From contig NZ_JABBGA010000013.1 in the NCBI RefSeq assembly GCF_012927165.1, positions 62,001-126,000 on the forward strand: DNA of 64,000 nt, in the 5' to 3' direction. Shown piece after piece: positions 22,692 to 26,281 of this stretch. This DNA comes from Zoogloea dura (lineage in GTDB: Bacteria > Pseudomonadota > Gammaproteobacteria > Burkholderiales > Rhodocyclaceae). The first letter of the stretch is position 1, and every line of letters starts with the position of its first letter. The position numbers were made by a program, and so were the translations under genes. The notes below the pieces were generated by a model. The model saw nothing but the letters and a program-made list of their open reading frames with translations, did no database searches and was not told where the DNA came from.

Positions 22692-23359
22692 GTGTTGGTT
22701 ATTCTGCGTCAGCGCCTTTACTGGACGGTTTTCCTGTTTTCCGCGTTGAGTTGGCCGGGATTTCGCCCCGGCGGGCGACCCCTTTCTTTGCGTCGCCAAA
22801 GAAAGGGGGAAAGAAAGGCGACCCGGCTTCCCCGGTCGTTCGCGTTGCGAACGACTCCCCTGCGCTGCTCGCATCGGGCGGCCGGCGCGGAACTCGTCGG
22901 CTGCGCCTCCTCAGACAGCCACGCCGGAAAGCCCCGCCCGATGCTGTGCTGCTCGGCGGGTCAGAACGGGCTTTTCGCAAACACCGCGCGTTTGCTGAAG
23001 CCGAGGCTGGCTTCCAACGAGAAAAGCAAAACCCAGCGTCTCGCACCCACCGGCTTTTCCGTAAAGGCTCGGTGCTTGGCCAAAGCCCGTTCCGACCCGC
23101 CGAGCAGCGGAACGGCAGGCGGGGTAGTCCGGCGCGGCTGTCTGAGCCCGAAGGGCGAGTTCCGCGCCGGCCGCCTGCCGTGAGCAGCGCAGGGGAGTCA
23201 TTCGCGTAGCGAATGACCGGCGAGGCGGGTCGCCTTCTTTGCCTTCTTTCTTGGCGAAGCAAGAAAGAAGGTCGCCCGCCGGGGCGAAATCCCGGCCAAT
23301 CCAACGCAAAACAACGGAAAGCCGCCCAGACAAAGGCACAGAACCAGAATAACCAACAC
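22692..23359. repeat. Large palindromic non-coding element, copy A
   Basis: A 668-bp gene-free block. The outer ends are exact 15-bp inverted repeats (GTGTTGGTTATTCTG at 22692-22706, its complement at 23345-23359). The inner core (22743-23307) has 29-bp perfect terminal inverted repeats (22751-22779 and 23275-23303), and roughly 235 bp of each half is an imperfect inverted copy of the other. Short hairpins are nested in each arm: 22779-22808 (12-bp stem), 22835-22855, 23198-23218 and 23242-23271 (12-bp stem). Several long open frames cross it in different frames on both strands, as expected from GC-rich palindromic DNA; none has a recognisable protein. A second copy lies at 25552-26127 in the same orientation. 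No transposase is present. Confidence 0.85.
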
Positions 23360-23515
23360 GCCCTGGACAACACGAGCCTCGGCAGGACCCCAGCGTTTTA
23401 CACCCCCCTCTCCAGCCGCCCGCAAGTGCGGAATCGAAGTTCATGGACGGATGAATCCGCCCCTGCAGGTCCGTGCCTTCCTGAACGCAATTCCCTCAAG
23501 CCGTCACGGTCTCTT

Positions 23516-25156: not shown

Positions 25157-25513
25157 GATGGCGTGGGAGGGGCTGCCGATGGCGTGGGATGGCGCGCCGA
25201 TGCCACGGGATGGCGTGCCGATGCCACGGGATGGCGCGCTGATGCCACGGGAAGGCGTGCCGATGCCATGGGAGCGCGTGCTGATGCCATGGGAGCGCGT
25301 GCTGATGCCATGGGAGGGCGTGCCGATGCCATGGGAGCGCGTGCTGATGCCATGGGAGGGCGTGCCGATGCCATGGGAGCGCGTGCTGATGCCATGGGAG
25401 CGCGTGCTGATGCCATGGGAGCGTGTGCCGATGCAATGGGAGGGCGTGCTGATGCCACGGGAGGGCGTGCTGATGCCATGGGAGCGCGTGCCGATGGCGT
25501 GGGAGAGGCTGTC
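25157..25513. repeat. Tandem array of seventeen 21-bp units (minisatellite)
   Basis: Seventeen head-to-tail units of exactly 21 bp follow the consensus GATGCCATGGGAGCGCGTGC plus T. Middle units (6-13) are nearly identical, while the first two and the last are the most divergent, as expected for expansion from the centre. Because 21 is a multiple of 3, several frames stay open on both strands and read as heptapeptides such as MPWERVL. Substitutions change those residues freely, so there is no sign of coding selection. The array begins right after the purU terminator and ends 38 bp before palindromic element copy B. Confidence 0.9.
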
Positions 25514-25551
25514 GGTGCTCTTGTGGTCAGGCTTCTTTGCTGGGCGGCGTT

Positions 25552-26127
25552 CCGTTGTTTTACGTTGAATTGGCCGGGATTTCGCCCCGGCGGGCGACCC
25601 CTTTCTTTGCGTCGCCAAAGAAAGGGGCAAAGAAAGGCGACCCGGCTTCCCCGGTCGTCCGCGTTGCGGACGACTCCCCTGCGCTGCTCGCATCGGGCGG
25701 CCGGCGCGGAACTCGTCGGCTGCGCCTCCTCAGACAGCCGCGCCGGAAGGCCCCGCCCGATACTCCGCTGCTCGGCGGGTCAGAACGGGCTTTTCGCAAA
25801 CACCGCGCGTTTGCTGAAGCCGAGGCTGGCTTCCAACGAGAAAAGCAAAACCCAGCGCCTCGCATCCGCCGGATTTTCCGTAGAGGCTCGGTGCTTGGAA
25901 AAAGGCCCGTTCCGACCCGCCGAGCAGCGGAACGGCAGGCGGGGTAGTCCGGCGCGGCTGTCTGAGCCCGCAGGGCGAGTTCCGCGCCGGCCGCCTGCCG
26001 TGAGCAGCGCAGGGGAGTCATTCGCGCAGCGAATGACCGGGGAGGCGGGTCGCCTTTCTTGCTTACTTCTTTGGCGAAGCAAAGAAGTGAGTCGCCCGCC
26101 GGGGCGAAATCCCGGCCAATCCAACGC
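25552..26127. repeat. Large palindromic non-coding element, copy B
   Basis: A near-identical, same-orientation copy of the core of element A (566-bp core 25562-26127, versus 565 bp). The left side keeps part of the outer inverted repeat (CCGTTGTTTT at 25552-25561), but the far outer 15-bp ends seen in copy A are not recognisable. Hairpins are conserved at 25654-25674 and 26062-26091 with paired changes relative to copy A. No transposase or plausible protein gene is present. The 150 bp that follow, up to the hypothetical gene at 26282, are AT-richer and show nothing I can name. Confidence 0.85.
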
Positions 26128-26281
26128 GAAAAAAAGGAGAACCCTCAGGACGGGCACCCATTCCCATGACACAGGCAACCCGCCCCACACCATGACATAC
26201 AATTTATCAAGCAAGCACCAACGCAACCACACAAGAATCAAATAGCATAAGCCCTCCCACCACCACTCCCGGAAAACCACC

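Follow-up and report, generated by a model that had tools for sequence, protein, structure and literature searches.

Integron cassettes carry single, unrelated and mostly orphan genes, and their attC sites are conserved in fold over sequence and have one preferred strand. Elements of the MIC, MITE and TIME kinds have inverted ends and no transposase of their own, with or without a passenger gene, the ends being short copies of a known IS or Tn3 end, while eukaryotic foldback elements have very long inverted arms and occur in cargo-less and cargo-bearing forms. REP sequences are described as hairpins of 20-40 bp lying in 3' intergenic places (PMC3733652), as occurring in inverted doublets (PMC3116915) and as being acted on by RAYT when folded and single-stranded (PMC8266576).

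Here we describe a repeat family from Zoogloea dura whose units have a compensated fold on the outward strand and stand in head-to-head pairs, at sites that are filled in one genome and empty in others, with different genes at one site of another genus and in association with REPs. There are two copies in the window (the whole stretch of DNA analysed, 64,000 nucleotides) and about 38 pairs in the genome. The first copy is an imperfect palindrome of ~620 bases, and the inverted repeat claimed in an earlier, sequence-only reading of this DNA is real, with four pairs of arms found at 78-84% identity (22688-22719/23332-23363, 32 nt, 84%; 22721-22815/23235-23329, 95 nt, 78%; 22823-22896/23156-23229, 74 nt, 84%; and 22910-22999/23057-23146, 90 nt, 79%). 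The exact 15-bp inverted ends and the small hairpins at 22779-22808 and 23242-23271, both perfect 12-bp stems, lie where that reading had placed them; its 29-bp perfect terminal repeat also exists, but with the right copy at 23271-23299, the proposed 23275-23303 failing to match. The features of the two copies are as follows.

22692-23359, no strand: whole element, copy 1, a cargo-less unit pair with outer inverted ends, missing in congeners at the orthologous site between uup and thrH
22692-22706, no strand: left outer 15-bp inverted end, GTGTTGGTTATTCTG, exact match
22753-22972, minus strand: left unit of copy 1, folding strand outward from the centre; full-length match to model R1, 244 bits, with the left arm itself in the R1 training set
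22779-22808, minus strand: left-unit hairpin CTTTCTTTG/CAAAGAAAG, helix 8, with 5 pairs invariant and 6 changed on both sides
22973-23083, no strand: central spacer of 111 bp between the 5' ends of both units (model coordinates), poorly conserved
23084-23297, plus strand: right unit of copy 1, folding strand outward; full-length match to model R1, 240 bits
23242-23271, plus strand: right-unit hairpin with perfect 12-bp stem, counterpart of the left-unit hairpin in the helix analysis
23345-23359, no strand: right outer 15-bp inverted end, exact match to the left end, inverted
23448-23466, minus strand: REP-like sequence directed towards copy 1, 3 mismatches to the REP query (G000:C5:85448-85466)
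25535-26138, no strand: element copy 2, downstream of purU, 93% identity (G000:C5:87535-88138)
25572-25791, minus strand: left unit of copy 2, from the unit-model search
25904-26117, plus strand: right unit of copy 2, from the unit-model search

Between purU and the second palindrome, a minisatellite (25157-25505) holds 16.6 copies of the 21-bp unit GATGCCATGGGAGGGCGTGCC.

The block had been thought to hold no plausible protein, and our analysis agrees. No Pfam family was found at E 0.5 in four ORFs taken from it, and no reading frame is conserved across 36 aligned copies, the best frame being stop-free in 13 of them and the length of the core not divisible by three in 29; a protein-coding element was rejected on these grounds. 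The view that it matches no recognised RNA family was likewise upheld, since Rfam 15 gave no match in the window at curated thresholds. In the loci of 20 relatives Rfam matched only rRNA and the L10 leader, and no unit. Two known RNA families were considered and rejected (P17, E 0.0041; P33, E 1.1), their scores being half or less of gathering, and others were alike; matches to miRNA families (best E 3.7e-5) scored far under gathering and fell on both strands, so they were read as chance matches of AT-rich hairpins. Among the matches listed by searches of the open-access literature, which takes in few subscription papers or bioRxiv preprints, none described the unit, in keeping with the earlier statement that no functional description was known.

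Judged from its alignments, each arm is an independent unit of ~220 nt with its own predicted branched fold. The genus-level alignment held 114 arms from own and congener copies, of which 42 were used after near-identical and short ones had been dropped, and RNAalifold on these 42 gave 57 pairs, 23 with both sides changed. Compensatory changes within the arms are strong: they affect the hairpin CTTTCTTTG/CAAAGAAAG, the closing helix and two further stems, one being GGTCGTTCG/CGAACGACT and the other the long stem at the centre. With this fold 98.3% of cells were paired, against 90.8% in shuffled controls, which ignore the relatedness of the sequences, and at most 49.5% in slid controls, which flatter the fold because the structure was derived from the same sequences. 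A class-wide set was obtained from 105 model matches, reduced to 83 by removing the own genome, duplicates and short matches and to 67 under 80% identical, with a mean identity of 53%; being found with the genus-level fold model, this set leans towards the fold. Its structure-free MAFFT alignment gave 34 pairs, every one with double changes, and 90.3% of cells were paired compared with 65.6% in shuffled and at most 46.5% in slid controls, to which the same cautions apply. E-values from the models are rough.

Where 49 pairs were predicted on both strands, G-T cells outnumbered A-C cells by 30 to 5, and the outward strand was the more stable, having the lower energy, in 35 of the 42 units at genus level and in 77 of the 86 found class-wide. 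The class-wide pairs held 97 G-T against 42 A-C cells, a bias partly favoured by a search model built on the outward strand. From these counts the predicted folding strand is shown to read outward from the centre of the element. Unpaired nucleotides, YUGUYUGAG...CGAGUUC for example, are strongly conserved, and are common to loci from Firmicutes, Bacteroidota and Nitrospira.

A structured RNA had been among the suggestions of the sequence-only reading; the structure is strong, by covariation, while its RNA nature belongs to what is the main rival to the gene-cassette reading that we develop below. Each unit would be a selfish or regulatory RNA, transcribed and structured, acting in cis in 3' UTRs or in trans, with the pairs spreading passively. 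Compensatory changes and an excess of G-T over A-C on one strand are equally expected of a functional RNA, and the conserved unpaired nucleotides, recurring in distant phyla, also argue for it, as does the gene context of the own copies, of which 15 are convergent, 16 co-directional and only 4 divergent (35 with both neighbours called, by ORF scoring). We regard this explanation as unlikely, though with a real claim to attention, and give the evidence against it with the arrangement and cargo of the units; a functional RNA could possibly even coexist with mobility.

Pairing between the two arms was rejected as a selected structure. In the 31 of 36 aligned copies with two scorable arms, arms of the same copy are 80.6% identical and arms of different copies 80.8%, and the observed value is equalled or exceeded in 4560 of 5000 permutations. 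Arms of one type are 94-95% alike across the same 31 copies, and together these values indicate that the element multiplies as a two-arm unit, of which the giant hairpin is a by-product. The description of the block as one giant inverted repeat with nested hairpins thus holds for the palindrome but has the hierarchy reversed, the fold within each arm being conserved and the pairing between arms not maintained. Some cassettes of genus g31 have two units that resemble each other more closely (e.g., L322, 94% over 207 bases).

A genome-wide search with the core had been proposed as a check, and our DNA search with the block gave 40 matching places in the own genome (counted from listed rows; best 40 of 92 candidates scored), while the arm model gave 79 units (best 150 of 8127 candidates scored); numbers of this size lie well outside anything expected by chance. 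The figure of 38 pairs is approximate, as two contig ends may in some cases belong to a single element (C37/C49, C14/C40). The copies are scattered across many contigs, their units are 80-95% alike, and a core is common to the 36 aligned copies, the outer ends of which are ragged. Exact outer inverted repeats of at least 12 bp flank 13 of 40 pairs (one of 41 was too short and excluded) compared with 1.4% in mismatched controls, but many are extensions of the units, so they do not establish where the element ends. Only 3 of 36 own copies have a fixed junction within a REP hairpin. Among plasmids, two records matched the element in part; no match was found in phages.

Several further observations were made on individual copies. 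A block swap from GCCGAGCA to TTTGATCC at one fixed position of the unit occurs in both arms of two own copies, L031 (2501-3133) and L052; L093 has it in one arm, L088 has it too, and it resembles an exchangeable module. Short inverted motifs, GGATTTGAGTTC for example, form arrays beside several own copies, L009, L010 and L019 among them, and a related motif set near own elements has 90 occurrences in 172 kb of own loci, compared with 6 in one shuffle. In a congener element (L080:1830-2460), 633 bp between the arms consist of repeats around GGACTTGAACC with no clear gene.

The units are arranged with a strong preference. All 38 pairs in the own genome are head-to-head (counted from listed rows), and its three lone units comprise one in a shortened copy and two at contig ends. 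Neighbours within 1 kb are head-to-head in 22 of 23 cases in the 120 named loci, the exception being in the same orientation ('++'), and in 9 of 11 cases in the 38 class-wide loci, with one '++' and one '--'; no tail-to-tail neighbours occur within 1 kb in either set. Four genomes of genus g31 have 16 of 16 pairs head-to-head (counted from listed rows), with 11 of 43 units unpaired. The congener loci L082, L083 and L084, chosen for having two matches, each have two units in the same orientation, L309 has three units, and the Stenotrophomonas loci have single ones. Units often stand alone: of 154 core-motif sites in named loci, 108 have no partner within 1 kb by regex, a figure inflated by diverged partners and contig ends. 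A functional RNA might account for the head-to-head form by having one unit in its functional sense in read-through transcripts from either side, which we hold to be as unlikely as the RNA explanation of which it is part, and the strength of the bias is left unexplained by it.

The block had also been described as gene-free, which is true of the copies here, none of the unit pairs located by the model in the own genome carrying a gene, but this view missed pairs that bracket genes elsewhere. The position of the central spacer of copy 1 is occupied by cargo genes in genus g31 (family f24). At one site of this genus, between a gene that we take from its translation to be lnt and one that is presumably GIY-YIG-like, 16 of 30 matching genomes were examined; six have units, each around a different gene, and ten are unit-free. 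Of the six with units, five were matched in both flanks and one, G709, in the right flank only. The six cargoes are a protein of 175 aa of no known family, with a small ORF before its gene, one of 357 aa with a RelA_SpoT domain (PADLOC PDC-S33, 1.6e-104), and four of 304, 213, about 177 and 145 aa with no Pfam family over cut-off. This one site of one genus constitutes the evidence for cargo exchange. The 16 unit pairs in the four g31 genomes have gaps of 99-117 bp (5), 240 bp (1) and 559-1153 bp (10), and all ten long gaps contain an ORF of at least 140 aa, one gap having two. Cargo in g31 also includes a HEPN protein (6e-16) and an 8xMP membrane protein (1.2e-11). No similarity at E 0.01 was detected among 17 cargo proteins from unit pairs, and no transposase among the cargo proteins scanned with Pfam. 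Gene-bracketing pairs were also found in L107, L139 and L165, the gene in the last looking broken. At L137:3138-4343, a CAP12/Pycsar-type TIR gene (PF10137, 1.3e-18; PADLOC PDC-S35) lies between a lone unit and a pair and, being outside the pair, is not counted as cargo.

The bracketing of different genes at one site is not explained by a functional RNA. In the g31 cassettes, moreover, cargo and units are separated by GC-rich hairpins followed by T-rich stretches, which by eye look like terminators and would stop transcripts ahead of the unit, against the RNA explanation; nor was a promoter noticed. The same different cargo at one site, together with the 80-95% likeness of the own-genome units, would agree with the units serving only as homology arms, ordinary homologous recombination after DNA uptake swapping the cargo with no dedicated enzyme involved. 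As this explains neither the conservation of fold and loops across the class at 53% mean identity nor new insertions at unit-free sites, we think it quite improbable.

Comparison of empty and filled sites in relatives, also proposed as a check, supports the earlier suggestion of a non-autonomous mobile element. The window site (uup-thrH) has no unit in 18 of 18 congener stretches, and both flanking genes were found in 17; since the site is empty in all 17 with both flanks, the element moved in. Larger gaps at this site in L280, L288, L293 and L294 were considered as cassettes and rejected, as there is no unit there; the gap gene in L288 and L293 is presumably esterase-like. Orthologous sites were read in detail in G010. 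The nearest relative is 96% identical in the genes adjoining the window site, and at eight further own sites it is element-free at five and has an interior-deleted copy at one (L009 and L034 were left out); at the latter, the L002 site (L300:490-670), the element is reduced to its outer ends and the interior of the palindrome is lost. A chromosome-organising site, another of the earlier suggestions, found no support: high copy number across many contigs would suit such a role, but presence varies among close relatives, and with no frame maintained and no Pfam match on the coding side, we consider a chromosome-organising or protein-coding element scarcely credible.

At five of six element-free sites of the nearest relative, the window site included, a REP or REPIN is present (read by eye). 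In the own genome, 14 of 89 REP-query matches lie within 100 bp of one of the 40 elements and all 14 point inward (counted from rows), where ~0.1 would be expected genome-wide, perhaps tenfold that in intergenic DNA by our own estimate; the background of the query is given by 39 matches in the reversed control. The gene context of the own copies resembles that of REPs. In genus g31, REP-like palindromes adjoin cassettes (by eye), and the L313 cassette has a 22-bp palindrome on both flanks. Inspection of six own sites by eye showed no clear target-site duplication, and the outer ends are ragged. Since REPs are present where the element is absent, they look like targets rather than parts of it.

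These associations also suggest that the elements may be giant REPINs, that is, REP doublets moved by RAYT with the unit pair and its genes as filling between the REPs. Inward REP-like sequences at some element ends, the REPs at element-free orthologous sites and beside g31 cassettes, and the action of RAYT on folded single-stranded REP (PMC8266576) all fit this explanation. REPs that occur without the element fit a target better than a part, however, and the unit is conserved across genera with differing REPs. The repeated unit is moreover the 220-nt fold instead of two inverted REPs with a short spacer, and the 14 REP-query matches, of one REP type, lie near only some of the 40 elements. Of ten genomes tested, two lack Pfam Y1_Tnp: G691, a single contig with 10 units (99% complete), and G010 (89% complete). 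This indicates that a resident REP transposase is unnecessary, and the single Y1 gene of the own genome has another REP beside it. We therefore judge the giant-REPIN explanation improbable. The Y1 match in the own genome, its only one, lies at L048:1316-1935, and the REP that flanks it is GTAGGTCGGGTTAGCGCAGCGTAACCCGAC.

No transposase had been recognised in the block, and none was found with Pfam in four of its ORFs; nor did a transposase or recombinase recur beside units in 120 named loci, each of at most 8 kb. What did recur beside units in these loci were common families (ABC transporters, GGDEF), along with spurious ORFs that overlap the unit itself.

The suspicion that such palindromes are common in proteobacterial genomes proved well founded. 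Model searches at E 1e-6 found units in 103 of the 300 genomes sampled from the order and in 63 of 369 sampled from the class, nearly all listed matches being full length, and per-genome copy numbers are floors as at most 7 (order) or 6 (class) candidates were scored per genome. About one in three of the genomes sampled from the order thus has the unit, hidden beneath spurious ORFs, and a covarying fold this large and widespread would amount to a nucleic-acid family of considerable size that has yet to be filed. At least 120 stretches of named genomes, several of them metagenome assemblies, contain the core pattern CTGTYTGAGCGCAGCGAGTTCNGC, and the taxa among the matches listed include Variovorax, Stenotrophomonas, Haemophilus, Thiomicrorhabdus, Nitrospirales, Desulfofustis, Lachnospiraceae, Thermoclostridium and Barnesiella. 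Loci from Firmicutes and Bacteroidota have the core at the tip of a long stem, with most of the remainder different and with model scores weak or absent. Strong full-length matches come from proteobacteria and one Desulfofustis assembly, which has a head-to-head pair (78 and 65 bits), and as the core alone is common to the other phyla, we keep common descent of the whole unit to such matches.

The simplest account of all these observations, and one that on balance we think somewhat probable, is that the block represents a mobile gene cassette, non-autonomous and dispersed, in its form without cargo, the ends of the cassette being head-to-head folded units of ~220 nt. A putative trans-acting DNA enzyme would recognise the unit in single-stranded folded form, and the pair would move with or without a gene between its units, inserting into 3' intergenic places with a preference for REP sequences; recombination may also exchange units and inserts, so that one site would come to hold different genes in different species. 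We infer that the units are recognition sites and that the relevant single strand is DNA rather than RNA; cargo would travel with its flanking units, moved by the putative enzyme. That no linked enzyme was found in the loci searched, that no target duplication is clear and that lone units are many are weak points of this reading. If pairs do move single genes, they would form a gene-exchange route invisible to annotation, and the units would mark places to seek new defence-type genes.

A broader proposal, which we advance tentatively and hold to be possible but short of probable, is that these pairs represent a class of cassette distinct from integrons, scattered and mostly single-gene, with two head-to-head folded recombination sites of ~220 nt and a core motif that crosses phyla. 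A putative trans enzyme would act on the folded single strands, and the cassettes would settle at REPs and shuttle small orphan or defence-type genes (RelA/SpoT-type PDC-S33, HEPN) between bacteria.

Compared with described systems, the unit pair looks like an undescribed kind of gene cassette, which in the copies of the own genome is without a gene. It shares with REPs and REPINs moved by RAYT the many copies, inverted doublets, 3' intergenic places and non-autonomy, and REPs and REPINs are found at element sites and at some element ends, but its unit is ~220 nt long and multi-branched and has conserved loops, and a gene can lie between the two units of a pair. Like MICs, MITEs and TIMEs it has terminal inverted repeats, no transposase of its own and an optional gene, although its ends are covarying folds of ~220 nt and no parental transposon was found in 120 loci of at most 8 kb. 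Foldback elements similarly have long inverted arms and both cargo-less and cargo-bearing forms, whereas the arms described here are maintained by internal folding and not by mutual pairing. The likeness to integron cassettes lies in single, diverse and orphan genes between folded sites (17 cargo proteins in 16 unit pairs), in conservation of fold rather than sequence and in strand preference. An integron cassette, however, has one attC in direct order and stands in a tandem array, while the element has two inverted units, mostly in head-to-head pairs, and occurs as scattered single insertions with no array seen.
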